NCBI GenBank assembly: GCA_903857495.1
Contig: CAIOFF010000059.1
Coordinates: 124,001 to 188,000, forward strand
Direction: 5' to 3'
DNA length: 64,000 nt
Origin: an uncultured Holophagaceae bacterium
GTDB lineage: Bacteria > Acidobacteriota > Holophagae > Holophagales > Holophagaceae
Shown: positions 20,354-49,502 of the stretch, piece by piece
Position numbering within the stretch: the stretch's first letter is position 1
Layout: each line of letters starts with the position of its first letter
The notes under the pieces: model-generated
Told to the model about the DNA's origin: nothing
Databases searched by the model: none
What the model saw: the letters and a program-made list of their open reading frames with translations, nothing else
Translations under genes and position numbers: made by a program

Positions 20354-20363
20354 AAGGACTCCC

Positions 20364-22264: not shown

Positions 22265-23223
22265 GCGGGTTCGCCGTCACCCTGCGGGACCTGGAGCGGC
22301 GCTTTGGGGACTTCGTGGCCGTGAACCGCATCAGCCTCGACGTCAGCCGGGGCGAGATCTTCGGGTTCCTCGGCCCCAACGGCGCCGGGAAGTCCACCAC
22401 CATCCGCATGCTCTGCGGGCTGCTGGAGCCCTCGGGCGGCAGCGGCACCGTGGCGGGCTTCGACATCCGCACGGAACGGGAGCAGATCAAGCGCAGCATC
22501 GGCTACATGAGCCAGAAGTTCAGCCTCTACGACGACCTCACTGTCGAGGAGAACATCGACTTCTACAGCGGCATCTACGGCATTCCCCGGGCCCAAAAGG
22601 CCGAGCGGAAAGCCTGGGTCCTGGAGATGGCGGGCCTGCAGGAGCACCGCCGCCACCGCACGGGCCAGCTGCCCGGCGGCTGGAAGCAGCGCCTCTCCCT
22701 GGGCTGCGCCCTGCTCCACGAGCCCGAGGTGCTCTTCCTGGACGAGCCCACCTCCGGCGTGGATCCCCTGAGCCGGCGCAGCTTCTGGGACCTCATCCAC
22801 CAGCTGGCGCACCAGGGCGTCACCATCTTCGTCACCACCCACTACATGGAGGAGGCCGAGTACTGCGACCGCCTGGCCCTCATCTACCGGGGGGAGCTGG
22901 CGGCCCTGGGGACGCCCGCCGAGATGAAGGGGCACCTCATGGTGGACCAGGTGCTGTCGGTCACCTGCGAGCGCTCCCACGAGGCGCTCGGGATCGCGGC
23001 GACGGTGCCCGGGGTCCGGGACGCTGCCCTCTTCGGCCGGGACCTCCACCTCATGACCGAGGACGCTGAGGCCCTGGCGCCCCGGCTGCGGCAGGCGCTG
23101 GAGCAGGCGGGATTCCGCGTGGACCGCACCGAGCGCATCGAGCCCTCCCTGGAGGATGTCTTCGTGTCCCTCATCGAGGCCCGGGACCGGGCTGACGGCG
23201 CCCAGCAGGAGTTCACCGCATGA
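22261..23223 (+). CDS. ABC transporter ATP-binding protein (second of pair)
   Basis: A 320-residue nucleotide-binding protein with Walker A GPNGAGKSTT, Walker B VLFLDEPTSGVDP and an intact H-loop His in FVTTHYMEEAEYC. The signature region is GQLPGGWKQRLSLGCALL, where LPGGWKQ replaces the canonical LSGGxKQ. The C-terminal IEPSLEDVF tail again matches YbhF-type exporters. It overlaps the preceding gene by ATGA and the following permease by ATGA, so all are translationally coupled. One protein has an altered H-loop and the other an altered signature, consistent with a heterodimer bearing one consensus ATP site. Confidence 0.93.
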   Translation: MSGFAVTLRDLERRFGDFVAVNRISLDVSRGEIFGFLGPNGAGKSTTIRMLCGLLEPSGGSGTVAGFDIRTEREQIKRSIGYMSQKFSLYDDLTVEENIDFYSGIYGIPRAQKAERKAWVLEMAGLQEHRRHRTGQLPGGWKQRLSLGCALLHEPEVLFLDEPTSGVDPLSRRSFWDLIHQLAHQGVTIFVTTHYMEEAEYCDRLALIYRGELAALGTPAEMKGHLMVDQVLSVTCERSHEALGIAATVPGVRDAALFGRDLHLMTEDAEALAPRLRQALEQAGFRVDRTERIEPSLEDVFVSLIEARDRADGAQQEFTA

Positions 23224-34910: not shown

Positions 34911-36731
34911 GTGGCCCCGTCCGCTCCCCCGCCCCCCGACTCCAAGCGACGGTCCTCGGCGCCGCTGGCGGCCCGCCTGGGGCAGAACCGGCCCCTCCTG
35001 CGGTCCTACCTGGCGGTGGCGGCGATCATCGTCATCATCGAGTTCACGATCATGGTGCTCCTGGAACCGCTATTCGGGGCGAACCACCTGGTCATGGCCT
35101 TCGTGGACTCGGGCACCCTGATCCTGGTGGCGGGACCCGCCATCTACTACCTGTTGGCCAAGCCCATGGCCCGGGGCCTTTACGAGAAGGCCGAGGCTGA
35201 GCGGGCCATCCAGGTGCTGGTGGAGAGGAATCAGGCGCTCCACCATGACGCGGAGCGGCGGCTGCAGACCGAGGTCATGGAGCGGACGAAGGCCGATGCC
35301 CGCATCCAGTTCCAGGCCCGGATCCTCGCGGTGGTGCAGCAGGCCGTGGTGGCCACGGGCAAGGGCGGGGTGATCCTCTACTGGAACCGGTTCGCCGAGT
35401 GGCTGTTCGGGTGGTCCGAGGACGAGATCCGGGGCCAGACCCTGGCCAAGGTCACCGGCTTCACCTCGGAGGCTGCGCGGACGGGACTGTCCGGCTTTGG
35501 CGCAGTCAAGGGCTGGGCCGGGGAAGTCCGGGCCCACCGTCGGGATGGCTCCACCTTCCCCGCCTACCTGACCTGCTCGCCCATCTGGCGGGAGAATGGC
35601 TCCATTGCGGGGTTCGTCTACACCTTCATCGACATCACGGAACGGAAAGGCGCCGAGACGGCCCTCCAGGATTCCGAGGAGAAATACAGCACCGTGGTGG
35701 AGAACTCCCCCACGGGCGTCTTCATCTACCGGAACGGCCACCTCGTGTTCGGCAACCAGCGGTTCTTCCAGATGGTGGGGCGCTCCCTGGATGAGTTGGC
35801 GGCCATGGATGTGGCGGACATCGTCCACCCCGAGGATTGGCCCGGGGTCCGCGAGCTCTGGCGGCAGCGTCTGGCGGGCCAGGGGGCGACCCAGGACTAC
35901 GAATGCCGGATCGTGACCCCCCTCGGTGATGTGCGCTGGATCGCCGGCCGGAGTGCCCTGATTCGCTACGGCGGAGAGCCGGCCCTGCTCGGCAACATCC
36001 AGGACATCACGGAGCGCCACAAGGCCGAGGAGGCCCTGCGGAACTCCCAGGAGGCCCTCCATCGCCTGAGCGCCCGGCTCATGTCCGCCCAGGAAGGCGA
36101 GCGTCGGCGCGTGGCCCAGGAGTTGCACGACAGCATCGGGCAGTCCCTCAGCGCCGTGAAGTTCATGGTGGAGCGGGCCCTGGATGAGCAGGAGGAGGCC
36201 ATCCCGGACCTCGAGCGGGGCAGGACCCTCCACGCCGTGGTCCCTGTGATCCAGGCCGCCGTGGAGGAGGTCCGCCGCATCTCCATGGCCCTGCGTCCCA
36301 CGACCCTGGACGACCTGGGCCTGCTCGCTACCATCGCCTGGTTCACCCGGGAGTTCCAGTCCACTTACCCGCACCTGGAGGTGGTCCGCCGCATCGAGGT
36401 GGAGGAGTTCGAGGTGCCGGAGTCCCTCAAGACGAACATCTTCCGCATCCTCCAGGAGGCCATGAACAATGCGGCGAAGTACAGCCAGGCCGCGACAGTC
36501 ACCGTGGTCCTGAGGCAGGTCCTCGGCGACCTCCAGCTGATGGTCGTGGACGACGGCATCGGCTTCAATACCGATGAGCGCCGGACCCCCAACCAGATGG
36601 GAGGCTTCGGTCTGGTCTCCATGCAGGAGCGGGCGGAGCTTTTCGGCGGCTCCCTGATCCTCACCTCGACCCCGGGCCAGGGCACCGAGGTCCTCGCCCG
36701 CTGGCCGCTCTCCGAGGAGACTAGCTCGTGA
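34911..36731 (+). CDS. PAS-domain sensor histidine kinase (NarX/LiaS-type)
   Basis: A 606-residue membrane kinase. Two TMs lie at about residues 32-52 and 62-84. A short coiled coil is followed by PAS domain 1 (about 130-245, ending TFIDITERKGAE) and PAS domain 2 (about 255-370, ending IQDITERHKAEEAL). The HisKA_3 dimerisation domain has phospho-His near residue 405 in VAQELHDSIGQSLSAV, and the HATPase has EAMNNAAKYSQA, VVDDGIGF and GGFGLVSMQERAELFGG. It starts at GTG 34911 with AGG upstream. The convergent NarL-type regulator overlaps its end and is the probable partner. The stimulus is unknown. Confidence 0.93.
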   Translation: MAPSAPPPPDSKRRSSAPLAARLGQNRPLLRSYLAVAAIIVIIEFTIMVLLEPLFGANHLVMAFVDSGTLILVAGPAIYYLLAKPMARGLYEKAEAERAIQVLVERNQALHHDAERRLQTEVMERTKADARIQFQARILAVVQQAVVATGKGGVILYWNRFAEWLFGWSEDEIRGQTLAKVTGFTSEAARTGLSGFGAVKGWAGEVRAHRRDGSTFPAYLTCSPIWRENGSIAGFVYTFIDITERKGAETALQDSEEKYSTVVENSPTGVFIYRNGHLVFGNQRFFQMVGRSLDELAAMDVADIVHPEDWPGVRELWRQRLAGQGATQDYECRIVTPLGDVRWIAGRSALIRYGGEPALLGNIQDITERHKAEEALRNSQEALHRLSARLMSAQEGERRRVAQELHDSIGQSLSAVKFMVERALDEQEEAIPDLERGRTLHAVVPVIQAAVEEVRRISMALRPTTLDDLGLLATIAWFTREFQSTYPHLEVVRRIEVEEFEVPESLKTNIFRILQEAMNNAAKYSQAATVTVVLRQVLGDLQLMVVDDGIGFNTDERRTPNQMGGFGLVSMQERAELFGGSLILTSTPGQGTEVLARWPLSEETSS

Positions 36732-37383
36732 CCAGGCCCTTCTCGATGGCGTAGGTGGTCAGGGCGGACACCGTGTGGAGGTTCAGGCGGTCCATGAGGT
36801 TCGCGCGGTGCTTTTCCACGGTCTTGGGACTGATGCAGAGATACTCCGCGATCTCCTTGGTCCGGTAGCCCTCGGCGATGAGCTTCAGCACCTCGCGCTC
36901 CCGGGTGGAGAGGTCGTCGAAGCTGGGCCGGAGGGGCTTCCCGTCCCGGGAGCCCAGGTAGCCCGAGACCACCGTGCCCGCAATGGCGGGGCCCAGGTAG
37001 CGCTCGCCGTTCAGGACGCTGCGCACGGCCAGGATCAGCTCCGACGCGGAAGAGTCCTTCAGCACATAGCCGTCGGCCCCGGCCTGGAGGGCGGTAAACA
37101 CGTAGTCCTCCGTCTTGTGCACGGTCAGGACCAGCACCTTGGTCTGGGGGCTCAGCCGCTTGATCTCCTTGAGCGCCTCCAGGCCATTGGACCTGGGCAT
37201 GGAGAGATCCAGCAGGATCAGGTCCGGATTGAGTTCCTGAACGGCCCGCACCGCCTCCCGGCCGTCCGTGGCCTCACCCACCACCTCCAGGTCCGGCCGC
37301 GCCCCCAGCAGCGCCTTCAGGCCCTCCCGGAGGATGGTGTGATCCTCCGCGATCACCAGCCTGTGCGTCTGTTCCGAGGTCAT
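36721..37383 (-). CDS. NarL/LuxR-family response regulator
   Basis: A 220-residue two-domain regulator. The receiver (residues about 8-125) has the acidic pair in VIAEDHTILREGL, the phospho-acceptor Asp in LILLDLSMPRSNG, the conserved Thr in VLVLTVHKT and Lys in GYVLKDSSASEL. The GerE/LuxR helix-turn-helix (about 150-215) reads LSTREREVLKLIAEGYRTKEIAEYL and KTVEKHRANLMDRLN. HisKA_3-type kinases usually pair with exactly this regulator class, so the convergent kinase whose 3' end it overlaps by 11 bp is the expected partner. Confidence 0.94.
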   Translation of the reverse strand: MTSEQTHRLVIAEDHTILREGLKALLGARPDLEVVGEATDGREAVRAVQELNPDLILLDLSMPRSNGLEALKEIKRLSPQTKVLVLTVHKTEDYVFTALQAGADGYVLKDSSASELILAVRSVLNGERYLGPAIAGTVVSGYLGSRDGKPLRPSFDDLSTREREVLKLIAEGYRTKEIAEYLCISPKTVEKHRANLMDRLNLHTVSALTTYAIEKGLVTS

Positions 37384-37544
37384 CAGGGGTCTCAATTCAG
37401 GTGGGCGTGCCCAGCGAGGGTAGCCTTCTTCCGGCCGCTTTGCACAGGGATCACCTACCCTGTCCAGAATCACTGTAGCCGGTCATCGACTAGGATAAAA
37501 CAAATGTCGACACAAGAGACTCGGCCTCGGGACAGGGCCGCCGA

Positions 37545-37613: not shown

Positions 37614-38093
37614 ATGCCCAGCACCCGCCTGTTCCTTTCTCTCCTGCTGGCCTCGGGCCTCGCGGCCACCCCCTCGAAGCCAGGCGCCGGCGCCAAGGGC
37701 CCGGTGCCCAAGGGCAACTGCGCCGTGTGTGGGATGGTCGTGGCGAACTTCCCCGACTGGGCCGCAGTGGTCACCTTCCGGGATGGCAGCCAGGCCTGGT
37801 TCGACGGCCCCAAGGACCTCTTCACCTACCTGCTGGACCTGAAGCGCTACGCCCCGAAGCGGGCCGCCGCCGACATCACCAGCATCCAGGTGAAGGACTA
37901 CTACGCCCTGAGGCCCACCGACGCCCGGAAGGCCTTCTTCGTCCTGGGCAGCGACATCATGGGTCCCATGGGCAGGGAACTGGTGCCCTTCGGCACCGAG
38001 GCCGGAGCCCGGGACTTCCTCAAGGACCACCACGGCAAGAAGGTGCTGGGCTTCGCGGAAATCAACCTGGGCACGCTGAAGGACCTGGAGTGA
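37614..38093 (+). CDS. nosL: NosL-family copper-binding protein
   Basis: A 159-residue exported protein. A signal peptide (LFLSLLLASGLAA) without an obvious lipobox Cys is followed by GNCAVCGMVVANFPDWAAVV, the NosL CxxCGM Cu(I)-binding motif. WFDGPKDLFTYLLD and the Met-rich FFVLGSDIMGPMGRELVPF come next. NosL delivers copper to nitrous oxide reductase in denitrifiers, but homologues occur without nosZ. GGAAGG precedes the ATG. It is the first gene of a tightly packed run with a small His-rich protein, an FtsX-type permease, an ABC ATPase and a membrane protein, suggesting periplasmic copper or other metal trafficking. Confidence 0.92.
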   Translation: MPSTRLFLSLLLASGLAATPSKPGAGAKGPVPKGNCAVCGMVVANFPDWAAVVTFRDGSQAWFDGPKDLFTYLLDLKRYAPKRAAADITSIQVKDYYALRPTDARKAFFVLGSDIMGPMGRELVPFGTEAGARDFLKDHHGKKVLGFAEINLGTLKDLE

Positions 38094-38133
38094 CAGGTAT
38101 CCTGGGGGGGGACACCCTCCCGAGGTCCGCCTG

Positions 38134-38460
38134 ATGCGCAAGTCCACCCTCTGCCTGGCCGTCACCGGCGCCCTCTCGGCGCTGTTCCTGGCCATGCTCG
38201 GCCACGCCCGGGCCCAGGAGCGCATGGCAGCCCTGCGGCGCCAGCCCAGCGCCGAGCTGGTGAAGCGGCTGGGACTCACGGACCTCTGCCTCTTCACCGA
38301 GGCGCGCTATACCCGGCATCCCGCCATGGCGGACCGTCACGCGGCCTTCCAGGACCACCCCATGGCCCTGGACCACTTCCCCTCCGGTGCCCTCCTTGCC
38401 CCGCCCGCCTTTCCGAGCCCCCATGCGCCCCCCCCTCCAGCGGTACCGGAACATCCTTGA
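38134..38460 (+). CDS. Small exported His-rich protein of the NosL operon
   Basis: A 108-residue protein with an N-terminal hydrophobic segment (LAVTGALSALFLAMLGHARA) that is a signal peptide or anchor. A compact conserved-looking core follows: LGLTDLCLFTEARYTRHPAM, ADRHAAFQDHPMALDHFPSG. Several histidines and one Cys could bind metal. The Pro-rich tail overlaps the start of the permease gene by 38 bp. I do not recognise a named family. The operon position between nosL and the ABC permease suggests a periplasmic partner of the transporter (inference). Confidence 0.7.
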   Translation: MRKSTLCLAVTGALSALFLAMLGHARAQERMAALRRQPSAELVKRLGLTDLCLFTEARYTRHPAMADRHAAFQDHPMALDHFPSGALLAPPAFPSPHAPPPPAVPEHP

Positions 38461-39559
38461 TTTCGCCCTCTCGTCGCTGCTGCGGCGGAAGGGACGGAAC
38501 CTCGCCCTGATCAGCGTCTACACGCTGGTGGTGTTCGTGATCGCGTCGCTGGTCTTCTTTGTCCAGGCCCTCAAGCGCGAGGCCCACGAGCTGCTCGCCC
38601 AGGCGCCGGACATGGTCGTGCAGCGCATGGTGGCGGGCCGCCACGACCCCGTGCCCCTGGCCCAGGTGGAGGCCATCCGGAACATCCGCGGGGTGGACGA
38701 GGTGCAGGCGCGCCTCTGGGGCTACTACTACGACCCGGTCTTCGGCGGGAACCTCACCGTGCTGGCCACGGAGGACGCGGCCCTGGCCCCGGACGCCATC
38801 TGGATCGGCCAGGGCGTCGCCCGCAGCATGCGGGTCAAAGAGGGCGACCTGATTCCCCTGCGCGGCTACGACGGCCAGTCCAACCTCTTCAGCATCCAGA
38901 AGGTCCTACCCGAGTCCTCGGAGCTGGTCTCCTCGGACCTCGTCCTCATGGCGCCGAAGGATGTCCGCGCCCTCTTCCACTTTCCCGAGGGACTCGCCAC
39001 CGACCTGGCGATCCAGGCGGGCAATCCCCGCGAGCTGCCCACCATCGCCGCCAAGATCGTCGAGCTGTATCCCGATTCCCGACCCATCCTGAAGACCGAG
39101 ATCCTGCGCACCTACGAGGCGGTCTTCGACTGGCGCGGCGGGCTCATGGTCGTGGTCCTCGGCTCTGCGGTGCTGTCCTTCATTATCTTCGCCTGGGACA
39201 AGGCCACGGGGCTGTCCGCGGAGGAGCGCAAGGAGATCGGCGTGCTCAAGTCCCTGGGCTGGGAGAGCTCCGACGTCCTGCTGCTGAAGTTCTGGGAGGG
39301 GACGGTGATCTCCGTGACCGCCTTCCTGACCGGGGTCCTGCTGGCCTACGCGCACGTCTTCTTCTTCTCTGCCTCGCTCTTCGAGCACGCCCTGAAAGGC
39401 TGGTCCGTGCTCTTCCCCCGCTTCCGGCTGATCCCGGCGCTGGACGGCTACCAGCTCACGGTCCTCTTCTTCCTCACGGTCCTGCCCTACACCGCCGCCA
39501 CCCTGGTGCCCTCCTGGCGGGCGGCTACGGTGGACCCCGACGCGGCCATGAGGTCCTGA
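38423..39559 (+). CDS. FtsX/MacB-type ABC permease
   Basis: A 378-residue protein with MacB-like topology. TM1 is at about residues 30-50 (LISVYTLVVFVIASLVFFVQ), a periplasmic MacB_PCD-like domain of about 190 residues follows, then three C-terminal TMs. The FtsX coupling region ATGLSAEERKEIGVLKSLGWE lies between TM2 and TM3. Such permeases act mechanically on periplasmic partners rather than moving solutes through a pore. ATG 38423 lies within the preceding gene; the ATPase follows 2 bp after the stop. There is only this single permease gene, implying a homodimer. Confidence 0.9.
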   Translation: MRPPLQRYRNILDFALSSLLRRKGRNLALISVYTLVVFVIASLVFFVQALKREAHELLAQAPDMVVQRMVAGRHDPVPLAQVEAIRNIRGVDEVQARLWGYYYDPVFGGNLTVLATEDAALAPDAIWIGQGVARSMRVKEGDLIPLRGYDGQSNLFSIQKVLPESSELVSSDLVLMAPKDVRALFHFPEGLATDLAIQAGNPRELPTIAAKIVELYPDSRPILKTEILRTYEAVFDWRGGLMVVVLGSAVLSFIIFAWDKATGLSAEERKEIGVLKSLGWESSDVLLLKFWEGTVISVTAFLTGVLLAYAHVFFFSASLFEHALKGWSVLFPRFRLIPALDGYQLTVLFFLTVLPYTAATLVPSWRAATVDPDAAMRS

Positions 39560-39561
39560 CC

Positions 39562-40281
39562 ATGATCGAGCTCTCCCAGGTCGTGAAGACCTACCAGGCC
39601 GGGCTGGCCACCCCCTTCACCGCCGTGGACCGGGTCACCCTCAGCATCCCCGCCGCCCGCCTCACGGTCTTCAAGGGCCCCAGCGGCTCCGGCAAGACCA
39701 CCCTGCTCACCCTCATCGGCTGCATGGCCCGCCCCACCTCGGGCCGGATCCACCTGCACGGCCTGGCCGCGGACGCCCTGCCCCACCTGGCCCCGGCGGA
39801 AGCGCTGGAGATCACCAGCCTGCCGGAGCGGTTCCTCACCGCCATCCGCCGCCGCACCTTCGGGTTCATCTTTCAGCAGTTCAATCTGGTGCGGGGCATC
39901 TCGGTCCTGGAGAACGTCCTGCTGCCTACCTATCCCACAGGCGAGGATCCTCGCGCCGTGGAGGCCCGGGCCGTGGCTCGCCTCGAGAGCCTCGGCCTGG
40001 CGCGGCACCTCCGCTCCTCGGTGGACCGCCTCTCCGGCGGCGAGGCCCAGCGTGTGGCCATCGCCCGAGCCCTCATCAACGATCCCGCCGTGATCATCGC
40101 GGACGAGCCCACGGCCCACCTGGACTCCAGGCTCTCGGAGGACTTCATGGGCCTCATGAGCGAGTTCAAGGACGCGGGCAAGACCCTGCTGATCACCAGC
40201 CACGATCCCATCGTCTACGACTCCGAGCTGGCGGACCTCGTGGTCGAGATGCGGGATGGCCGGGTGGTGTCGGAAACATGA
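39562..40281 (+). CDS. LolD/MacB-type ABC ATPase
   Basis: A 239-residue ATP-binding protein. It has Walker A GPSGSGKTTLLTLIG, FGFIFQQFNLVRGISVLENV (Q-loop), signature RLSGGEAQRVAIARAL, Walker B VIIADEPTAHLD and the H-loop His in LLITSHDP. This is the LolD/MacB/FtsE subclass that partners FtsX-type permeases. An extra stretch of about 15 residues (LHGLAADALPHLAPAEAL) lies between Walker A and the Q-loop. Its last codons overlap the next gene (ATGA), so all five genes of the NosL run are probably one transcript. Confidence 0.94.
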   Translation: MIELSQVVKTYQAGLATPFTAVDRVTLSIPAARLTVFKGPSGSGKTTLLTLIGCMARPTSGRIHLHGLAADALPHLAPAEALEITSLPERFLTAIRRRTFGFIFQQFNLVRGISVLENVLLPTYPTGEDPRAVEARAVARLESLGLARHLRSSVDRLSGGEAQRVAIARALINDPAVIIADEPTAHLDSRLSEDFMGLMSEFKDAGKTLLITSHDPIVYDSELADLVVEMRDGRVVSET

Positions 40282-41270
40282 TCCAGCACCCAGGCATCCT
40301 CGCCCTGCTCGTCGCCTCGGGCATCGTCAGCCTGCTGCTGGCCGCGGCGGGCTGGCAGGGCTTCCGGATCCTCCTCGGCTGGGACCTGCACAGCGGCAGC
40401 GAGGTGCAGCTGGACCTGGAGCGGCGCACCTACCTGGTATCCACCCTGGTGGCCAACGCCCTGCTGATCCAGATCCTGTCGCTCTTCCTGTTCATCTTCA
40501 CGGCGGAGGGCCTGCACAACCAGTTCGTGGGGGCCATGTGCGCCGCCGGATCCCTGGCCGTGAACGCCTACGGCTATCCCACCCTGCTCATGAAGGTCGC
40601 CACCTGCCTGCTGGCGGGGGTCTGGCTCGTGCTCCACCGTGCGGACACCCAGGGCTACGACTACCCGCTGATCCGCCCGAAATACCTGCTGCTGCTGGTC
40701 CTGGTGCCCCTGGTGCTGACGGAGACCTGGCTGCAGCTGAGCTACCTCACGGGCCTGAAGGCGGATGTGATGACCTCCTGCTGCGGCAGCCTCTTCGGCC
40801 AGGGCCGCCAGGGCTTCGCGGCCGAGCTGGCAGGCCTGCCGCCACGGCTGATGCAGCCCGTGTTCGGGGGCACCTTCGCGGCACTGCTGGGGGCCGGCTT
40901 CCTCCTGCTGCGCTTCCGCCGGGGGGCGGGACTGTTCTCGGCCCTCAGCCTGGCCTTCCTGCTGGTGGCAGTGGCCTCACTGATCTCGTTCTTCTGCCTC
41001 TACATCTACGAGCTGCCCACGCACCACTGCCCCTTCTGCCTGCTGCAGCGGGAATACGGCTTCGTGGGCTACCCCCTCTACGCAACCCTGCTGGGCGGCG
41101 CCATCGCCGGCCTCGGCATCGGCGCCCTGACCTTTTTCCGGGACCGGGAGAGCCTGACGGCCGTGCTACCGACCCTGCAGGCCCGCCTGGCCTGGACCAC
41201 CCTGATCCTGGCGGCCCTCTTCACCTTCATCGTCGGCGTCTGGATGGCCTTGTCACCGCTGCGGCTCTAG
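40278..41270 (+). CDS. Polytopic membrane protein with HHCPFC motif
   Basis: A 330-residue integral membrane protein with about eight hydrophobic segments. Notable features are MTSCCGSLFGQG after the fourth segment (paired cysteines) and YELPTHHCPFCLLQREYGFVG near residue 255. The second is a His-His-Cys-Pro-x-Cys site flanked by TMs, reminiscent of VKOR/DsbB-like redox or metal sites. I do not recognise a named family. Its 4-bp overlap with the ATPase gene and position at the end of the NosL operon argue for joint function in metal or thiol handling. Its TAG stop shares a CTAG with the convergent phosphatase gene. Confidence 0.85.
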   Translation: MIQHPGILALLVASGIVSLLLAAAGWQGFRILLGWDLHSGSEVQLDLERRTYLVSTLVANALLIQILSLFLFIFTAEGLHNQFVGAMCAAGSLAVNAYGYPTLLMKVATCLLAGVWLVLHRADTQGYDYPLIRPKYLLLLVLVPLVLTETWLQLSYLTGLKADVMTSCCGSLFGQGRQGFAAELAGLPPRLMQPVFGGTFAALLGAGFLLLRFRRGAGLFSALSLAFLLVAVASLISFFCLYIYELPTHHCPFCLLQREYGFVGYPLYATLLGGAIAGLGIGALTFFRDRESLTAVLPTLQARLAWTTLILAALFTFIVGVWMALSPLRL

Positions 41271-41767
41271 GCGCGGCTGCTCAGGTAGCGCCGGAGGGCC
41301 TCTTCGGTGTCGGCACGCTGGAGGCCGGCCCGCTTGGCCACGCGGATGGCCTCTTCCAGTGGCATCCCCTTGTCGAGCACCAGCCAGGGGCACACCGCCG
41401 CGGCGGCGCGGTTGCCATCGCCGCAGTGGAAGAGCACCCGGGAGCCCTTCGGAAGGTCCTTCAGGAAGCTGCGCAGGAAGTCAAAATCGCCCGCGGGCGG
41501 GGCGGTATTGATCGCATAGCGGAGGTACTGGATGCCCAGCGTCTGCATGCGGATCGACTCCGCCTCGCAGTTCATGCTGGGTTCGCCGTCCCGCCGCAGG
41601 TCCACCACGTGGGTGAAGCGGTTCTTTTTCAGGGCGACGCAGGTCTCCTCGTTGGGGAGTCCCTTCAGCACAAAGACCCCCGGGCGCACCTCGACGGCGC
41701 GGGGGATGACGGAATCCTGGGCCTGGAGCACCAGGGCCGGGAGCAGCAGGAAAAGGGCACGGGACAT
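41267..41767 (-). CDS. DUF442/dual-specificity phosphatase-like exported protein
   Basis: A 166-residue protein with a signal peptide (LFLLLPALVLQAQ). The fold is that of cysteine phosphatases and rhodanese-like DUF442 proteins: FTHVVDLRRDGEPSMNCEAE, then the active loop VLFHCGDGNRAAAAV (His-Cys-x4-Arg). The x4 spacing fits the beta-lactamase-hydrolase-like group rather than classical PTPs (x5). Export to the periplasm is unusual for a phosphatase and would suit a sulfur-transfer or lipid-phosphate role. It is convergent with the NosL operon, sharing stop-codon bases. Confidence 0.78.
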   Translation of the reverse strand: MSRALFLLLPALVLQAQDSVIPRAVEVRPGVFVLKGLPNEETCVALKKNRFTHVVDLRRDGEPSMNCEAESIRMQTLGIQYLRYAINTAPPAGDFDFLRSFLKDLPKGSRVLFHCGDGNRAAAAVCPWLVLDKGMPLEEAIRVAKRAGLQRADTEEALRRYLSSRA

Positions 41768-41928
41768 GGGACCCTCCGCGACTTGGCCTGGCAGCCCAGG
41801 CGGCTTCGCAAAGACCACCGGCCGAGCCCCCCTTTCAGGGGCTGAATCCGAACCCGGCTGGGCGGGTCTCCACACCCCAAACATAGGCCATAGGCCAGCT
41901 TAAACAATGCCGATGCTGCTGAGAGGGT

Positions 41929-43299
41929 TCAGACCGTGCGCGAGAAGGCCGTCTTGGCGCTGAGCCCGGCCAGGTAGGCGTCGAAGGGCTGGACCAGGTT
42001 GCGCACGAAGCGCCGCCCCAACTGGGTGATGAAGATGCCCTCGGGCCGCAGCTCCACGGTGCCCTGGGGGATCTCTTCCTGGAGCTGCGCCACGGCGTCC
42101 GCGAAGAAGACGGGACCGTCCAAGCCGAACCGCTGCTTCAATTCATCCCAGCGCAGCTCGAAGTGGCCCATGAGGTGGTGGATCACCCAGCGCCGCAGCT
42201 CGTCATCCTCGGAGAGCCGGTGCCCCTTGTGGATGGCGAGGTGGCCGTCGGTGATGCTGCGCTCCCACTTGGCCAGGATCTTCTCGTTCTGCGCATAGAC
42301 CCCGGCCACGTTGGAGATGGCGCTGGGGCCGAAGCCCAGCAGGTCCGAGCCTGCAGACACGGCGTAGCCCATGAAGTTGCGGATGAGGCGCCCCTCCAGT
42401 ACGGCCTTGGCCATGGGATCGCTGGGGTGGGCGAAGTGGTCCATGCCGATGGCCACGTAGCCCGCCTTCTCCAGGACCTCCGAGGCCAGCAGCAGCAGGT
42501 CCAGGCGCGTCTCCGGCGTGGGCAGGGTCTCCGCGGGGATGCTGCGCTGGAAGGGCATGATGCTAGGCAGGTAGGCAAAGCCGTAGATGGCCATGCGGGA
42601 CGGCGACAGCTCCAGCGTGGACTCCAGGGTGCGCCGGAAGGTGTCCATGGTCTGGCCCGGCAGGCCGTAGACCAGGTCCAGGTTCACGCCCTCGAAGCCC
42701 AGTTCCCGGCACTGGCGCATGGCATCCAGCGTGTGCTGCCAGGTCTGGCCGCGGGTGATCAGGGCCTGCACGCCCTCGTCCAGGTCCTGCACGCCGAAGG
42801 AGACGCGGTTGAACCCCAGCTCCCGCAGGGTCGGCAGCTGATCGGGCTCCAGGAAGGTGGGGTCCACCTCGATGGCGAGCTCGGCCCCCGGCAGGAACTC
42901 GAAGCGCTCCCTGAAAAGGTTGAAGGTCCGCCGCAGGTCCACGGCCTTCAGGTAGGTCGGCGTGCCGCCGCCCCAGTGCAGCTGCAGCGCCTTCCGGCGG
43001 TCCTTGAGGTGGGCGCAGACCAGGTCCAGCTCCTGGGTCACGGCCGCCAGGTAGGCCTCCACGGGGTCGTACTGGGGGCTCACCACCACGTTGCAGCCGC
43101 AGTAGGCACAGCGCCGGGGGCAGAAGGGGATGTGCAAGTACAGGGACAGCGCCTCGTCCGGGCGGGCGTCGGCGCGGTCCAGGGCCGCAAGCACCTCGGC
43201 CTCGGGGAAGTCCTCAGACCAGACCGGCGGCATGGGGTAGCCCGTGTAGCGCGGGCCGGGACGGTCGTAGCGGCGGATGAGGTCCGCGAGCCCGCTCAT
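41929..43299 (-). CDS. hemN: Oxygen-independent coproporphyrinogen III dehydrogenase
   Basis: A 456-residue radical SAM enzyme that decarboxylates coproporphyrinogen III to protoporphyrinogen IX without oxygen. YLHIPFCPRRCAYCGC near residue 52 gives CxxxCxxC plus the extra Cys typical of true HemN, followed by LHWGGGTPTYL, EVDPTFLE, RVSFGVQDLDEGVQ and the HemN C-terminal domain. The N-terminal IRRYDRPGPRYTGYP is diagnostic of HemN rather than HemW. It overlaps hemE by ATGA and is the last gene of the heme cluster. Confidence 0.96.
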   Translation of the reverse strand: MSGLADLIRRYDRPGPRYTGYPMPPVWSEDFPEAEVLAALDRADARPDEALSLYLHIPFCPRRCAYCGCNVVVSPQYDPVEAYLAAVTQELDLVCAHLKDRRKALQLHWGGGTPTYLKAVDLRRTFNLFRERFEFLPGAELAIEVDPTFLEPDQLPTLRELGFNRVSFGVQDLDEGVQALITRGQTWQHTLDAMRQCRELGFEGVNLDLVYGLPGQTMDTFRRTLESTLELSPSRMAIYGFAYLPSIMPFQRSIPAETLPTPETRLDLLLLASEVLEKAGYVAIGMDHFAHPSDPMAKAVLEGRLIRNFMGYAVSAGSDLLGFGPSAISNVAGVYAQNEKILAKWERSITDGHLAIHKGHRLSEDDELRRWVIHHLMGHFELRWDELKQRFGLDGPVFFADAVAQLQEEIPQGTVELRPEGIFITQLGRRFVRNLVQPFDAYLAGLSAKTAFSRTV

Positions 43300-44282
43300 G
43301 CCTTGACCTCGTCCAGGACCGCCTGCAGCACCGCGGGATCGGTCTCGGGGGTGAGCCCGTGGCCGAGGTTGAAGATGTGCGGGTGCCCTTTCATGACATC
43401 CACGATGGCCCGGGCCTTGCGGCAGGCGGTCTCGGGGCCCGCCAGCAGCGCGATGGGGTCCAGGTTGCCCTGGAGGACCATCTTCGGGAACCGGCGCCGG
43501 GCCTCGGCCATGGGCACCTGCCAGGGCACCGCCAACCCCTGGCAGGGCAGCTCGTTCAGGGAATCCGGCAGGTAGCCCGTCCGGGCAAAGAACAGCGTGG
43601 GAGCCGCGGTCACCTGCGAGAGGGTGCGCTGCACCGCGGGCAGCGCGAACTCTGCGTAGTCCTGGGCATCCAGCTCTCCGGCCCAGGTGTCGAAGAGCTG
43701 CACGCCCTGGGCGCCGGCGCCGATGTGCAGGTTCAGCAGCCGCGCGGCGGCGTCCGCCAGCTTGTCCAGCCACTTGCGGGCCAGGACGGGATCGTGGTGC
43801 AGGAAGGCCTTGGCCTTCGACCAGCTCTTGCTGCCCTTGCCTTCGATGCCGTAGGCCAGCAGCGTCCAGGGGGCGCCCGCGAAGCCCAGCATGGTGACCT
43901 TCTCCGGCAGCTGGCTCTTCACCTTGCGGATGGCGGCCTGCACCGGGTCGAAGATGGACTCGTCCAGGGGCCGGTTGATGTCGATCTGATCGAGGGTCTT
44001 CCCGATGCGCGGGCCGCCCTCGGGGATGGTCACCTCGCAGCCCAGGGCGTCGAGGATCACCAGGATGTCGCTGAAGATGATGGCGCCGTCGATCTGCGGG
44101 AAGCGGCGGATGGGCTGGAGGGATACCTCCGCGGCCAGGTCCGAGTCGCTGAGCAGCTGCTCGAAGGTGGCCTTGGCCCGGATGGCGCGGTACTCCGGCA
44201 GGAAGCGCCCCGCCTGGCGCATGAACCACACCGGGGGCTTGTCGAGCGACTCGCCATTCAAAACACGAAGCAGAGGCTGCAT
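43296..44282 (-). CDS. hemE: Uroporphyrinogen decarboxylase
   Basis: A 328-residue TIM barrel that removes four acetate carboxyls from uroporphyrinogen III. The two signature segments are KPPVWFMRQAGRFLPEYR (with the essential Arg residues) and GFAGAPWTLLAYGIEG. FSDILVILDALGCEV carries the catalytic Asp, and FNLGHGLTPETDP closes the protein. It is coupled to hemN by a 4-bp overlap. Upstream lies a 144-bp gap containing a palindromic repeat that separates it from hemL. Confidence 0.97.
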   Translation of the reverse strand: MQPLLRVLNGESLDKPPVWFMRQAGRFLPEYRAIRAKATFEQLLSDSDLAAEVSLQPIRRFPQIDGAIIFSDILVILDALGCEVTIPEGGPRIGKTLDQIDINRPLDESIFDPVQAAIRKVKSQLPEKVTMLGFAGAPWTLLAYGIEGKGSKSWSKAKAFLHHDPVLARKWLDKLADAAARLLNLHIGAGAQGVQLFDTWAGELDAQDYAEFALPAVQRTLSQVTAAPTLFFARTGYLPDSLNELPCQGLAVPWQVPMAEARRRFPKMVLQGNLDPIALLAGPETACRKARAIVDVMKGHPHIFNLGHGLTPETDPAVLQAVLDEVKA

Positions 44283-44318
44283 GGGTACTCCAGAGTCAAC
44301 AACAGTCAAAGGCGACTA

Positions 44319-44415
44319 CTCTCGCGGAGGGTTGCAGAGATGGCAGAGAGCTCAGAGCAAAGCAAAGGCATCCTTCCTCTGCAACCTCCGCCTCCTCTGC
44401 GCCCCTCCGCGAGAG
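44319..44415. repeat. Inverted array of GCAGAG/GCGGAG units between hemL and hemE
   Basis: Outermost arms CTCTCGCGGAGG (44319-44330) and CCTCCGCGAGAG (44404-44415) are exact complements. Inside, both arms are built of 8-10 nt units such as GGTTGCAGAG, ATGGCAGAG and, on the other strand, GGGCGCAGAG. A T-run (44416-44421) follows the right arm. It could attenuate transcription between hemL and hemE, although for the minus strand the T-run precedes the hairpin. Confidence 0.75.
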
Positions 44416-44426
44416 TTTTTTCATTT

Positions 44427-45686
44427 TTAAAAGTCCTTCGCCACGGCGGCCACGGCCTGCTGGAAGTGGGCGAGTTCGGGGGCGCCATGAGCGCCGCCCA
44501 GGAAGGCCACTTCGTAGCCGCTGGGGGGCAGGTAGACGCCCTGGCCCAGCAGCGCCTTATGGAGGCGGTTGAAGCTGCTGATGGCAGCGCCCTGCACGGC
44601 GTCGCTGCGGCGCACGCCGTCCTGGAACAGCGGCCAGAGCAGGCTGCCGTAGCGGGGGCAGCGCAGGCCTGGGATGGTCTCGAAGGCCTTGGCCCAGGCG
44701 GCGGCGGTGGTCTCCAGGGCGGCGTAGAAGGCCGGGGTGAGGTGGGCCAGGGTGGCGAGGCCCGCGGCCATGGCCACGGGGTTGCCGGAGAGCGTGCCCG
44801 CCTGGTAGACCGGCCCGTCCGGCGCGACCACGCCCATGATGTCCTTGCGGCCGCCGTAGAGGCCCACGGGCATGCCGCCGCCGATGATCTTGCCGTAGGT
44901 GCCCAGGTCCGGCGTGATGCCCAGGCGCTCCGCCGCGCCGCCCGGGGCCACGCGGAAGCCGCTGATGACCTCGTCGAAGATGAGCACCACGCCGTGCTTC
45001 GTGCAGAGCTCGCGGAGTCGCGTGAGGAACTCGGGTCGCTGGAGCAGCAGGCCGTTGTTGGCGGGGATGGGCTCGATGATGGCCGCGGCCAGCTCGGAGC
45101 CGATCTCGGCGAAGGTGCGCTCCAGGGTCTCCAGGTCATCCAGGGACACCACGGAAGTCAGCTCCGCGATGGCCTTGGGCACGCCGGCGCTGGTGGGCGC
45201 GCCGAAGGTGATGAGGCCCGAGCCCGCCTTCACCAGCAGGCCGTCACTGTGGCCGTGGTAGCAGCCCTCGAACTTGAGGATGCGCTCCCGACCCGTGAAG
45301 CCCCGGGCAGCACGCAGGGCGGACATGACGGCCTCGGTGCCCGAGGACACGAAGCGCATCTTCTCCACGAAGGGCACCATCTCCTTGATGCGGCGGGCCA
45401 GGGCCAGCTCCCGGCGGCTGGGGGCGCCGAAGGTGAGGCCCTCCTGCATGGCCTCAGTGACGGCCGCCAGGATGTCCGGGTGAGCGTGGCCCAGGATCAG
45501 GGGACCCCAGGACATGCAGAGGTCCAGGAAGCGCTCACCGTCCTCGTCCTCGAACCAGGCCCCGCTGGCCTTGCGGAAGAACTTCGGCGTCCCCCCCACC
45601 GCGCGGAAGGCCCGCACCGGACTCGACACCCCCCCCGGGAAGTGCGTCAGCGCCTCAGCAAACAAAGTCTCATTGCTCATCGTCAT
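44427..45686 (-). CDS. hemL: Glutamate-1-semialdehyde 2,1-aminomutase
   Basis: A 419-residue PLP enzyme that converts glutamate-1-semialdehyde to 5-aminolevulinate, second step of the C5 pathway. FPGGVSSPVRAFRAVGG at the N-terminus, FVSSGTEAVMSALRAARGFTGR, KFEGCYHGHSDGLL, LIFDEVISGFR and the Schiff-base Lys in GTYGKIIGGGMPVG are conserved. The start at 45686 or 45680 cannot be separated by ribosome site. It lies between hemB and hemE in the heme cluster; repeat elements occupy the gaps on both sides. Confidence 0.97.
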   Translation of the reverse strand: MTMSNETLFAEALTHFPGGVSSPVRAFRAVGGTPKFFRKASGAWFEDEDGERFLDLCMSWGPLILGHAHPDILAAVTEAMQEGLTFGAPSRRELALARRIKEMVPFVEKMRFVSSGTEAVMSALRAARGFTGRERILKFEGCYHGHSDGLLVKAGSGLITFGAPTSAGVPKAIAELTSVVSLDDLETLERTFAEIGSELAAAIIEPIPANNGLLLQRPEFLTRLRELCTKHGVVLIFDEVISGFRVAPGGAAERLGITPDLGTYGKIIGGGMPVGLYGGRKDIMGVVAPDGPVYQAGTLSGNPVAMAAGLATLAHLTPAFYAALETTAAAWAKAFETIPGLRCPRYGSLLWPLFQDGVRRSDAVQGAAISSFNRLHKALLGQGVYLPPSGYEVAFLGGAHGAPELAHFQQAVAAVAKDF

Positions 45687-45712
45687 CCCGCCTTCTTTAT
45701 TGCTTTCAGTTG

Positions 45713-45736
45713 TCCTTCTTCGCGTCTTCGCGTTGG
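45713..45736. repeat. Solo arm of the purine-unit repeat family upstream of hemL
   Basis: Read on the minus strand the stretch is AACGCGAAG-ACGCGAAG-AAGGA, two 8-9 nt units of the same layout as the hairpin arms elsewhere in the window. No complementary arm is seen in the 66-bp hemB-hemL gap. Confidence 0.5.
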
Positions 45737-45752
45737 ATCTTGTTTCTCTTCC

Positions 45753-46730
45753 CTAGCTGATCCAGCCCTTCTCCACCGCCTCGCGGGCGGCGTAGGTGAC
45801 GATCATGTCGGCGCCGGCGCGGCGGATGGCCAGGAGGTGCTCGAACATCAGCTGGTCGCCGTTGACCCAGCCCAGGCGGTCCGCGGCCTTGACGCTGCTG
45901 AACTCGCTGGAGACGTGGTAGGCGCAGAGCGGCGCCAGGGTGGCCTGCCGCAGGCGCCAGATGAGATCCAGGTTCGGCAGGGCGGGCTTGACCATGAGCA
46001 TGTCCGCGCCCTCCTCGATGTCGAGCAGCGCGTCCCGCAGCCCCTCCCGGGCGTTGCGGGGATCCATCTGGTAGGTCTTCCGGTCGCCGAACTTGGGGCT
46101 GCTGTGGGCGGCCTCGCGGAAGGGGCCGTAGTAGGCGCCTGAGTGCTTGATGGCGTAACTGAGGATGCTGGTGGAGGTGAAGCCGTTCTGGTCCAGCAGC
46201 GCGCGGATGGCGGCCACGCGGCCGTCCATCATGTCGCTGGGGGAGACGATGTCGGCGCCCGCCTCGGCGTGGCGCAGGGCCATCTCCGCCAGGACGGGGA
46301 GGGACGGGTCGTTGAGCACCTCGCCCTCCTCGCTCACCAGGCCGCAGTGACCGTGGCTGGTGGCGCCGCAGAGGCACACATCCGTGATGACGATGAGGTC
46401 AGAACCGAAGGCCTGCTTCAGGGCCCGCACGGTCTGGGGGATCACGCCCTCGCGGTCCTTCACGTAGGCGGCGTCGGGGGTCTTGGCGCCGTCCTCGGGA
46501 ACCCCGAAGAGCAGCACATTGGTGACGCCGCGCTTCAGGTCCTTCTCCACCTGGCGCACGGTGTCCTCCACACCGGCGTTGCAGATGCCCGGCATGCTGG
46601 AGATCTCGATGCTGCCCGCCTGGGGCTGCACGAAGTGGCCCTGGATCAGGTGGCGCGGGCGGAGGTCCGTCTCGGCAACGAGGTTGCGCATGGCGGCGCT
46701 GGTGCGGAGGCGGCGGGAGCGGTTCAGCAT
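45753..46730 (-). CDS. hemB: Porphobilinogen synthase (ALA dehydratase)
   Basis: A 325-residue TIM barrel that condenses two 5-aminolevulinates. CLCGATSHGHCG supplies the zinc-binding cysteines, indicating a Zn-dependent active site. The two Schiff-base lysines are in LSYAIKHSGAYYGPFR and MVKPALPNLD. YQMDPRNAREGLRD and the C-terminal ADMIVTYAARE are conserved. Its first 7 bp overlap the end of hemD, so the two are translationally linked. Confidence 0.97.
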   Translation of the reverse strand: MLNRSRRLRTSAAMRNLVAETDLRPRHLIQGHFVQPQAGSIEISSMPGICNAGVEDTVRQVEKDLKRGVTNVLLFGVPEDGAKTPDAAYVKDREGVIPQTVRALKQAFGSDLIVITDVCLCGATSHGHCGLVSEEGEVLNDPSLPVLAEMALRHAEAGADIVSPSDMMDGRVAAIRALLDQNGFTSTSILSYAIKHSGAYYGPFREAAHSSPKFGDRKTYQMDPRNAREGLRDALLDIEEGADMLMVKPALPNLDLIWRLRQATLAPLCAYHVSSEFSSVKAADRLGWVNGDQLMFEHLLAIRRAGADMIVTYAAREAVEKGWIS

Positions 46731-47419
46731 GGGGACTCCTCCTTCTTGGGCAGACTGGCGATGAGCAGGGCTTCGAGCAGGTCGGGCTTGGGTTCGCAGG
46801 TGGCGTGGGCCGGTGCCCCCACCCGGGCGAAGGCCTCGGCAGTGCCCTGGCCCCAGGCGAAGCGCCGCGTGGTGGCGGCCAGCGGGCCGAGCAGCTCCGC
46901 CTGCAGGGGACTCAGGGCCAGCACGGCCGCCACCGTCGGCAGGGTCGGCAAGGGCTCGGCCGCGACCTCGCGGTGCGTGACCCAGGCATGGAGGCGCCAG
47001 ACGGTGTCCTGGGCCGCGGACTCGAGGAAGCCCCGGCTGCGCTCGCCCCGCACCAGCAGGAAGTCCCCGCCCTCGGGGAAGGTGGCCTGCAGCAGCGCCC
47101 AGAGAGCCTCGGCGTGGGCCTCCGCGGGCCGCAGCACGGCGAGGTCGCGGCGACTCAGGGCCTCCGCCGTGCCGATCCCCTGCGCCAGGCAGCGCATTCC
47201 ATCCGGCAGCACGGAGGCCACGGCCCGGGCACCGGCCGGACTCAGCACCAGCACGGCTGCAAGCGCCGACCAGGGTCGGGGCGGCGGAAAGCCCGTGGGC
47301 TCGGCATTCGTGAGGAGATACGGCACCGGCTCCCAGCCCGCCCGCCGCACCGCCTGGGACAGGGGGTGCTGCGCAGGCCGGGCCAGCGCCAGGCGGGGGA
47401 GTCCCGTGGGCGGGGTCAT
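46724..47419 (-). CDS. hemD: Uroporphyrinogen-III synthase
   Basis: A 231-residue protein in the position where hemD is expected, between hemC and hemB. The family is poorly conserved. Visible features are LALARPAQHPLSQAVRRAGWEPVPYLL at the start, a first-domain AAVLVLSPAGARAVASVL, the hinge FLLVRGERSRGFL, and AVLALSPLQAELLGPL with the later GQGTAEAFARVG. These match the two-lobed fold that inverts ring D during closure of hydroxymethylbilane. It is short compared with typical members (about 250). It overlaps hemC by 4 bp. Confidence 0.82.
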   Translation of the reverse strand: MTPPTGLPRLALARPAQHPLSQAVRRAGWEPVPYLLTNAEPTGFPPPRPWSALAAVLVLSPAGARAVASVLPDGMRCLAQGIGTAEALSRRDLAVLRPAEAHAEALWALLQATFPEGGDFLLVRGERSRGFLESAAQDTVWRLHAWVTHREVAAEPLPTLPTVAAVLALSPLQAELLGPLAATTRRFAWGQGTAEAFARVGAPAHATCEPKPDLLEALLIASLPKKEESPC

Positions 47420-48300
47420 GCCAGCCCGATGCCCTTGAGCACCTGGGCCAGGAGCTCCCGATCGTCGGTGCCGCGCGCTTCCGCCCGGCGCAGCTCGCCC
47501 TCCGGCGCGTAGGCCACCTGCAGCAGCAGGCTGCCATCGGTCTGGGGCGTGGCCAGGGCGCCGAGGGGCTGCTGGCAGCCGCCGCCGATGCCCGCGAGCA
47601 CCTGGCGCTCCAGGGTCACACAGCGGGCGGTCAGGGCGTCGTGAAGGTCCGCCAGGGCTTCGATGAGGTCAGGCCGGTCCGCCCGGGCCTCGGCCAGCAG
47701 GGCGCCCTGCCCCGGCGCCGAGGGCAGCTCTTCTGGCGTGAGGGCCCGCACGGTCAGACCCGAGAGGTCCAGCCCCAGCCGCTTGAGACCAGCGGCGGCC
47801 AGCAGGGTGGCGTGGAGGGGTTCGTCCCGCAGCACGCCGTCCCGCACGCGCTGGAGCCGAGTCTGCACGTTGCCGCGGATCCAGGTGAAGCGGGCCTTCG
47901 GAAACAGCTGGCTGAGCACCCGCTGGCGCCGCACGGCGCTGGTGCCGATGACCAGGTTCTCGGGGGCGTCGGGGCGCAGCACCAGCCAGTCCGCGGGGTC
48001 CTCGCGCAGCGGGATGCAGGCGGCCACGATGCCCGCGGGCCGCTCCAGGGAGACATCCTTGAGGCTGTGGATGAGCAGGTCCGCCTGGCCGGAGCCCATG
48101 GCGTCCTCCAGCTCCTTGGTGAAGAAGCCGCCGCCCTGCTGCTTGTCCAGCGGTCCCAGCAGCCACTGGTCACCGGAGGTGGAGAACTTGCGCCAGGTGA
48201 CCTCATAGCCCCTCGCCTCAAGGAACTTCACCATGGGCTCGGCCTGGCCCACGGCCAGGGCGGAGCCTCGGGTGGCAACTGTGACGCGCTTCGAACTCAT
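47416..48300 (-). CDS. hemC: Hydroxymethylbilane synthase (porphobilinogen deaminase)
   Basis: A 294-residue enzyme polymerising four porphobilinogens. VATRGSALAVGQAEPM, DLLIHSLKDV, IGTSAVRRQRVL, WIRGNVQTRLQRV and the dipyrromethane-cofactor Cys in GGGCQQPLGA are conserved. The active-site Asp region usually read as HSxKDLPT is HSLKDVSLE here. It is coupled to hemA by ATGA and to hemD by overlap. Compared with typical members of about 310 residues, the C-terminal domain is slightly short. Confidence 0.95.
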   Translation of the reverse strand: MSSKRVTVATRGSALAVGQAEPMVKFLEARGYEVTWRKFSTSGDQWLLGPLDKQQGGGFFTKELEDAMGSGQADLLIHSLKDVSLERPAGIVAACIPLREDPADWLVLRPDAPENLVIGTSAVRRQRVLSQLFPKARFTWIRGNVQTRLQRVRDGVLRDEPLHATLLAAAGLKRLGLDLSGLTVRALTPEELPSAPGQGALLAEARADRPDLIEALADLHDALTARCVTLERQVLAGIGGGCQQPLGALATPQTDGSLLLQVAYAPEGELRRAEARGTDDRELLAQVLKGIGLA

Positions 48301-49502
48301 TGATTGACCGCCTCTCCGTCTGCTGGGGGTTTCGGTTGGGTCTGGATCAGGGCCCGGAAGGCCAGGGTCCGGCCCCGGGAGAGGATCTCCTTGAGGGCTT
48401 CGCGCTGGGCCTCGTCCATGCAGGCCATGGTCTCCTCCAGCACCTGCACTTCTTCCTCCAGGGCGCCCCAGGCTGAATCCAGCCGCTCCTGGGCGGACAG
48501 CAGATGCCGCTTGCGGGCGCGGGCCTCAGCCCGGTGGCGCAGGCGGCGGGCGGCGCCCACCAGGTAGGGTTCGGCCTTGAGGGCCGCTTCGGCACGCTGG
48601 CCCCGGGCCGTGGCCGTCTGGGCCAGGAAGGCATTCAGGTCCACGCGGTGGATCCAGGGCAGCAGCTCCAGGCCCGGCTCCGAGTCTGGCGGCAGCGCCA
48701 GATCGAGGATGCGCAGGGTGGACCGCTTCAGGGCCTGCCAGGCGTCCCAGGTGAAGAGCGGCTCTGGCGCGGCGGTGGCGGTGACGATGGCGTCGAAGCC
48801 CTCGGGGTCGTGCTGCAGCTGGGGGAGGTCCACGGTGGCCAGGCCCAGGGGGTCCGCCAGGTCATGGGCCTTGCGGCGGGTGCGGTTGGCCACCACCACC
48901 CGGAAGCCCCGCTCCGGCAGCCGCTCCGCCAGGTACTGGGTCATGGGTCCGACGCCGACCAGGGCCACGCTGGAGCCGGGCTCCAGGCCCTCGGTCAGGT
49001 GCTTCAGGGCCACGGTGGCGACGCTCACGTTGCCGTCCGCCAGCCCCAGGCGGGCGCGCAGCCGCTGGCCCTCGCGGATCACGTCCTCGACGGCCGTCTG
49101 GGCCTCTTCGCCGGCCACGCCCACCTCCCGGGCCGCGACCAGGGCGTCCTTGAGCTGCCCAGGGATCTCCCGGTCGCCCAGGTTGGCGGACTCCAGGCCC
49201 GCGGACATGGCCAGCAGGTGGGTCCAGGCCTCCTCGCCCTCGTAGCGGCGGTAGCCCGGGCCGGGGTCGAGGCTCCCGGCCTCGCCGCCCCAGACCATCC
49301 AGAGCACCCGCTGGCAGGTGGCCAGGTAGACCAGCTCCCGGGCTCCGGCCTGCTGCTGCCACTCGCGAAGGTGGGCTGAAAGCCCCTCCCGCACCACATG
49401 GTGCGCCACCTGATCCAGGTCGTGGACCGGCGCGTGGAAGCTGATGAGGACGGGTTCCATATCGGTTGAAATGATCGGCTGCGACGGCACCGCGTCGGTC
49501 AT
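48297..49502 (-). CDS. hemA: Glutamyl-tRNA reductase (divergent)
   Basis: A 401-residue protein with the GluTR layout: an N-terminal catalytic domain with the nucleophilic Cys in VYLATCQRVLWMVW, SAGLESANLGDREIPGQLKDA, a Rossmann NADPH domain (SVALVGVGPMTQYLAERL), and a C-terminal dimerisation helix region. The active motif is unusual: TCQRVLW replaces the near-universal TCNRTE(I/L), and GDREIPGQ replaces GExQIxGQ. Position ahead of hemC and hemL for the C5 route supports GluTR function. The start 49502 (weak ribosome site) or 49460 is uncertain. Confidence 0.85.
   Translation of the reverse strand: MTDAVPSQPIISTDMEPVLISFHAPVHDLDQVAHHVVREGLSAHLREWQQQAGARELVYLATCQRVLWMVWGGEAGSLDPGPGYRRYEGEEAWTHLLAMSAGLESANLGDREIPGQLKDALVAAREVGVAGEEAQTAVEDVIREGQRLRARLGLADGNVSVATVALKHLTEGLEPGSSVALVGVGPMTQYLAERLPERGFRVVVANRTRRKAHDLADPLGLATVDLPQLQHDPEGFDAIVTATAAPEPLFTWDAWQALKRSTLRILDLALPPDSEPGLELLPWIHRVDLNAFLAQTATARGQRAEAALKAEPYLVGAARRLRHRAEARARKRHLLSAQERLDSAWGALEEEVQVLEETMACMDEAQREALKEILSRGRTLAFRALIQTQPKPPADGEAVNQ

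Follow-up and report, generated by a model that had tools for sequence, protein, structure and literature searches.

A NosL-linked FtsX/LolC-type ABC operon, probably for periplasmic copper handling, in a Holophagaceae bacterium and several other phyla

In the window, the whole 64,000-nucleotide stretch of DNA that was analysed, a compact plus-strand operon was found to combine a NosL-family protein with an FtsX/LolC-type ABC permease, an ABC ATPase, and two proteins of no known family. Its products probably make up an ATP-driven device that acts on copper beyond the inner membrane. Its five-gene arrangement recurs across phyla far beyond chance, independently of nosZ, and in other genomes it lies beside copper genes. 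A periplasmic machine that handles Cu(I) at the expense of ATP, together with copper efflux or delivery, is the best explanation, and is held tentatively, at slightly under an even chance.

Operon organization

The tight order of five genes, together with the CxxCGM, CC and HHCPFC motifs that an earlier note had read from this DNA, was borne out by an open reading frame check and inspection of the sequence. The operon spans 37614-41270 (+) and comprises the following features. From the first gene to the last, the junctions are a gap of 40 bases, an overlap of 38, a gap of 2 and an overlap of 4.

37614..38093, plus strand: nosL, exported NosL-family protein, 159 aa (PF05573, 1.8e-27)
38134..38460, plus strand: small protein, 108 aa, exported or anchored by a single helix (motif conservation in 71 homologues)
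38423..39559, plus strand: ABC permease of FtsX/LolC/MacB type, 378 aa, one copy (PF02687, 2.6e-7)
39562..40281, plus strand: ABC ATPase of the FtsE/LolD/MacB group, 239 aa (PF00005, 4e-26)
40278..41270, plus strand: g5, polytopic membrane protein, 330 aa, eight helices (alignment A2 and AlphaFold2)

For the permease, an ATG start was favoured by the alignment of homologues, and a GTG at 38387 is also possible.

Protein families and structure predictions

NosL scored 96.7 bits against Pfam PF05573 (cut-off 24), its nearest PDB chains were solved NosL structures (7osf/7znq/7og7, 2e-7), and it carries a Sec-type signal. The CxxCGM motif consists of Cys36, Cys39 and Met41, with a second Met pair at 116/119 and a DH near residues 138-140. 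Among 24 homologues of this first NosL, the two Cys and the Met of CxxCGM are invariant, as are the D and H (24/24 each), and 23 of the 24 share the second Met. The reading of the gene as an exported NosL with a Cu(I)-type motif stands. In canonical NosL, His is never absolutely conserved (PMC6530538). Since the protein has no Cys upstream of Cys36, it lacks a lipobox Cys. The window genome has this single NosL and no other copy. At 34 of the 80 best loci described below, a second NosL paralogue is present near the first (L053, L082, L092, L115 and about 30 others), with an extra Cys pair (GTCSxxC) and a C-terminal tail that is often rich in His and Met; it is likely a distinct copper-binding partner.

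The small protein matched no Pfam or NCBIfam family. It has a hydrophobic N-terminus followed by a motif nearly unchanged across phyla, LTDLCLFTEARYTRHP..AD...FQD.P...EHFPSG, which in the window copy occupies residues 48-87 as LTDLCLFTEARYTRHPAMADRHAAFQDHPMALDHFPSGAL. Of the 40 motif positions counted, 11 are identical in all 71 aligned sequences. The protein had been described as an exported, His-rich protein of 108 residues, and its size and His residues were as described; it is better characterized by one long conserved motif than merely as His-rich. Conserved His and Cys, whose absence the earlier note had said would count against its reading, were seen across the homologues: the best-kept His are His81 (69 of 71 sequences) and His62 (64 of 71), and Cys52 is kept in 65 of 71.

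The permease scored 31.2 bits against Pfam FtsX PF02687 (cut-off 25.5), and a search of PDB sequences returned LolC chains (3.5e-4). Its predicted model (pLDDT 77.7) has TM helices at 23-59, 224-261, 282-319 and 342-369, with the periplasmic domain placed between TM1 and TM2, and was matched by Foldseek to LolE (3e-15) and MacB (2.5e-13). It thus has the FtsX C-terminal domain, the four TM helices and the periplasmic domain after TM1 that mark the FtsX/LolC/MacB superfamily. The ATPase scored 92.6 bits against ABC_tran PF00005 (cut-off 25), with Walker A at residue 39 and LSGGE at 157, and matched FtsE, MacB and LolD models in NCBIfam, in every case under the equivalog cut-off. The proposed pairing of a single FtsX/MacB-type permease with a LolD/MacB-type ATPase is upheld by Pfam, by the PDB sequence match to LolC and by Foldseek. 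No NosY-type permease and no NosD partner was found among the operon proteins by Pfam, the permease being PF02687.

The last protein, g5, matched no Pfam or NCBIfam family (own sequence, and for Pfam also 40 homologues). Alignment A2 revealed three conserved sites, G85-A-M-C88, C168-C169 and H249-H-C251-P-F-C254, within which GAMC 85-88, CC 168-169 and H249-x-C251 are invariant and C254 nearly so. Two homologues (L068, L084) have Asp in place of C254, which means that the CPxC pair is not an absolute requirement. AlphaFold2 predicted eight helices (pLDDT 90.8, pTM 0.89), with the Cys-bearing sites in loops after helices 2, 4 and 6, all on one face; this face is inferred to be periplasmic because the Arg/Lys-rich loops lie on the opposite side of the model. 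No relatives of g5 were found in the PDB by sequence, or by Foldseek at E <= 0.001, the VIA-align rows were generic helical bundles, and no sequence signal for an internal repeat between its halves was detected. Two candidate identities were rejected. With DsbB, g5 has a local CPxC resemblance only, with no Pfam match and an hhalign value of 0.9%; with FetA, the hhalign value was 0.5%, against a weak FetA-like set in which two of five rows are short frames. No PF10080 (DUF2318, FtrD-like) match was found in g5 or in its own genome, and no FTR1 or P19 match in the operon.

Distribution and conservation

A g5 gene was found in 18 of 60 related genomes, and the alignment of these relatives led to 549 stretches in GTDB genomes, 516 of which were confirmed by tblastn. 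All counts of gene order rest on the best 80 of the 516 confirmed loci, for which the fetched stretches were searched with profiles. These 80 loci come from Holophagaceae, Geobacter and other Desulfuromonadota/Desulfobacterota, Nitrospirota including Nitrospira, Methylococcales, and a Marinimicrobia bin. The small protein, permease, ATPase and g5 occur together at 74 of them, in this order apart from artefacts of overlapping frames, and at 67 of the 74 NosL is also present within the fetched stretch; since it is missing there from the other 7 core operons, NosL may not be essential. A lack of the five-gene order in other genomes, which the earlier note had said would tell against it, was not observed. 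Median pairwise identities are 50-63%. Across the 67 loci, the pairwise distances of any one of the five proteins correlate with those of the others (r 0.60-0.83), which argues that the five have been inherited largely together. Within Geothrix, the genus of the window, 21 of 47 genomes have the permease, as do 15 of the 30 that are near-complete, a patchy occurrence that suggests an accessory function. No plasmid-borne copies of g5 or the permease were found.

Variants of the arrangement were also recorded. L037 (G044 contig 85), in the same class, is a second and divergent operon copy that has NosL, permease, ATPase and a g5 of 29% identity, with an unrecognisable 99-residue open reading frame in the slot of the small protein. 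The position ahead of the small protein, usually that of NosL, is occupied at L118, L109 and L106 by a membrane protein of the DsbD_2 family, and at L106 NosL is placed after g5. At L127, L130, L132 and L137, in operon-bearing genomes of Geobacter type and Nitrospirota, FtrD-like (DUF2318) proteins stand beside FtsX-type permeases, apparently as another metal-linked FtsX system that runs parallel to the operon in these cells.

Copper genes near the operon

A CusA-type RND pump was found within about 9 kb of the operon at 13 loci. At 10 of these (L082, L088, L092, L094, L096, L100, L101, L104, L115, L120) the pump lies upstream on the same strand, mostly in the layout cusB-cusA-nosL(-nosL)-small-permease-ATPase-g5. 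At each of the 13 loci a pump keeps all six Met tested (391, 486, 573, 623, 672 and 1009 of CusA from E. coli K-12, the reference), and all three pumps scanned scored above the cut-off of TIGR00914 (HME-RND); a further RND protein, at L067, is of another type. Operon genomes carry about 2 HME-RND genes each, and the number of such CusA-neighbour loci expected by chance was estimated at about 0.7 in 74, a figure weakened by the relatedness of the genomes. The CusA neighbourhoods cluster in Desulfobacterota that are related to one another and so do not count as 13 independent cases. Every Geothrix genome has several HME-RND genes, and co-occurrence is uninformative in that genus. Further copper genes include a CopA-type copper ATPase above cut-off at L118, which also has the DsbD_2 protein, and SCO1 in a contiguous run with the operon at L072 and L116. 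At L056 and L057, the best model for a TonB receptor is that of a copper receptor, with a score below cut-off. TlpA-like thioredoxins also occur among the neighbours.

A copper role of the operon is therefore considered likely from the genes that surround it in other genomes. The earlier note had left open copper or another metal, with periplasmic proteins or lipoproteins as substrates and thiol redox handled by g5. The neighbour genes elsewhere favour copper; lipoproteins as substrates gain no support, this NosL having no lipobox, and thiol redox by g5 is one possible reading, its Cys/His loops fitting metal binding equally well and homology to DsbB not being detectable.

Proposed mechanism

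In the proposed mechanism, NosL in the periplasm would take Cu(I) through CxxCGM and the second Met. The permease and ATPase would form an ABC complex of MacB/LolC fold that does mechanical work on the periplasmic side, with no ion passing across the membrane; the window permease contains no Cys, and a Cys-free permease of predicted LolC/MacB fold would suit mechanical work more than a thiolate ion path. The small protein would dock on the permease by its conserved motif and couple it to NosL, and g5 would provide, on the outer surface of the inner membrane, a site rich in Cys, His and Met that may accept Cu(I), donate it or keep it reduced in the course of transfer. The energy of ATP would go into capturing or releasing Cu(I) for onward passing, the recipient being CusBA efflux where a pump is adjacent and other copper proteins elsewhere. 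The ATP-driven transfer step is proposed tentatively, with confidence just short of half. The full statement, that an FtsX/LolC-type ABC machine spends ATP moving Cu(I) between periplasmic NosL, a small coupling protein and a Cys-rich eight-helix protein in hundreds of bacterial species, unrelated to nitrous oxide reduction, may hold, and is given clearly less than even weight.

Alternative explanations

The main rival is periplasmic thiol redox, in which g5 would be a DsbB/VKOR-like or DsbD-like electron relay, the ABC complex and NosL would set the redox state of TlpA, SCO and copper proteins, and copper would be context and not cargo. In its favour are the Cys of g5, five of which, invariant or nearly so, sit in three loops that share a face, with a CPxC that opens a helix as in DsbB. 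The fetched stretches also hold genes of TlpA-like or SCO type at 23 loci and DsbD_2 at 4, and the Fet systems set a precedent in which thioredoxins and an 8-TM CXXC protein are paired with an ABC transporter (PMC10783030). However, no DsbB (PF02600) or VKOR Pfam match was found in 40 g5 homologues, hhalign of g5 against three DsbB proteins gave the 0.9% noted above (from a thin DsbB profile), position 258, examined for the quinone Arg of DsbB, is variable in A2, and C254 is Asp in L068 and L084. Thiol redox as the main function is judged unlikely.

Trafficking of lipoproteins or outer-membrane proteins in the manner of LolCDE/MacB, with NosL as one client, would agree with a permease nearest to LolC/LolE/MacB and an ATPase nearest to LolD/FtsE/MacB in both sequence and fold. 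Against it, the scores are far below the equivalog cut-offs (LolCE, 39.7 against 362 bits; LolD, 151.8 against 307.75 bits), there is one permease and not two, NosL lacks a lipobox, and the neighbourhoods are those of copper genes; this reading is improbable.

Little weight is likewise given to an auxiliary role in maturing the copper centres of NosZ or cytochrome oxidase. In denitrifiers NosL serves NosZ (PMC6530538), and in 26 of 50 operon-bearing genomes the NosZ model matched the C-terminal CuA domain only, as expected of cytochrome oxidase subunit II; the SCO1 neighbours point the same way. However, full-length NosZ was found in only 1 of these 50 genomes (G107, 473 bits), and a CuA match was absent from 23. 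None of 47 Geothrix genomes, including that of the window, had nosZ; no control genome was matched in that scan, the same model having matched in the 50-genome scan, and one further nosZ search was without a positive control. A link to nosZ, and with it NosZ maturation as a general role, was rejected on these counts, and the operon proved to be independent of nosZ, not being confined to sites beside nosZDFY. Among the Geothrix genomes, 18 of the 21 with the operon and 23 of the 26 without it have CuA oxidase subunit II; since the subunit occurs with or without the operon, the oxidase link is not specific and the operon is not needed for the oxidase.

That the operon employs a NosL-like protein for a different metal (Fe, Ag, Zn) could be argued from the Fet systems, which serve iron (PMC10783030), and from the transport of Ag(I) by CusA-type pumps, but is improbable given that the classifiable neighbours are of Cu(I) type (CusA Met at 13 of 13 loci, CopA, SCO1).

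Relation to known systems

The known systems closest to the operon are NosDFY-NosL and FetABCDEF, which are analogues and not relatives as systems. With NosDFY-NosL it shares a NosL with CxxCGM beside an ABC transporter that would act on the periplasmic side, but it has no NosZ, NosD or NosY-type permease, its ABC transporter is of FtsX/LolC type, its NosL has no lipobox, and two extra proteins of no known family are present. The Fet systems of Campylobacter, which combine thioredoxins and an ABC transporter with an 8-TM protein bearing CXXC motifs, help the cells to grow when iron is limiting (PMC10783030). FetABCDEF of Campylobacter jejuni, beside FetMP, resembles the operon in its 8-TM Cys-motif protein, ABC transporter, redox partners and periplasmic metal protein (PMC10783030), but FetA has DUF2318 and YHS domains, neither of which is in g5, and Fet has two permeases, serves iron and lacks NosL. 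The C-terminal half of g5 resembles DsbB/VKOR as a four-helix bundle with CPxC at a helix start, but g5 is twice the size and has no detectable sequence homology; since g5 is not detectably related to FetA or DsbB, these are analogies and not memberships. LolCDE/MacAB/FtsEX (type VII ABC, mechanotransmission) share the permease fold and ATPase group, but the operon stays below the FtsE and MacB as well as the LolCE and LolD equivalog cut-offs, has a single separate permease, and has partners unrelated to LolA, MacA and EnvC. CusCFBA is a genomic neighbour in several Desulfobacterota, with which the operon may share the logic of a periplasmic Cu(I) carrier feeding a pump, but its proteins are different, and at some loci the operon has no CusBA next to it.

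Searches of the open-access literature turned up no account of this operon. NosL, the permease fold and the ATPase are each known; the combination of parts, the small protein and g5 appear undescribed. If the proposed function is right, an ATP-driven, periplasm-facing copper device joins P-type ATPases, CusCBA and soluble chaperones, carried by metal-reducing, sulfate-reducing and nitrifying bacteria, and NosL would have a role beyond nitrous oxide reductase, so that 'nosL' would not be a denitrification marker. Two protein families absent from Pfam and NCBIfam would gain names and tests.

Genomic surroundings in the window

No copper gene lies next to the window's own operon, where the neighbours are a sensor kinase/response regulator pair, a phosphatase-like gene and heme biosynthesis genes. 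Just upstream, genes for a histidine kinase with a PAS domain (+) and for a response regulator of LuxR type (-) meet end to end at 34911-37473, a pair that could regulate the operon. At 41267-41884 (-), a gene for an exported dual-specificity phosphatase/phytase-like protein converges on g5; the protein scored just above cut-off for PF14566 and below cut-off for a Blh-like NCBIfam model, and a homologue has the same place in several Geothrix. Downstream on the opposite strand, 41929-49502 (-) holds a heme cluster identified by sequence and Pfam (hemA, hemC, hemB, hemL-like, hemE, hemN), and genes that flank the heme stretch are found again next to the operon in other Holophagaceae. Copper poisons heme synthesis, and the neighbourhood of operon and heme genes may or may not be accidental. 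Farther away, at 19995-24371 (+), genes for an HlyD-type adaptor, two ABC ATPases and an ABC-2 permease, in this order, form an ordinary export operon of tripartite type.
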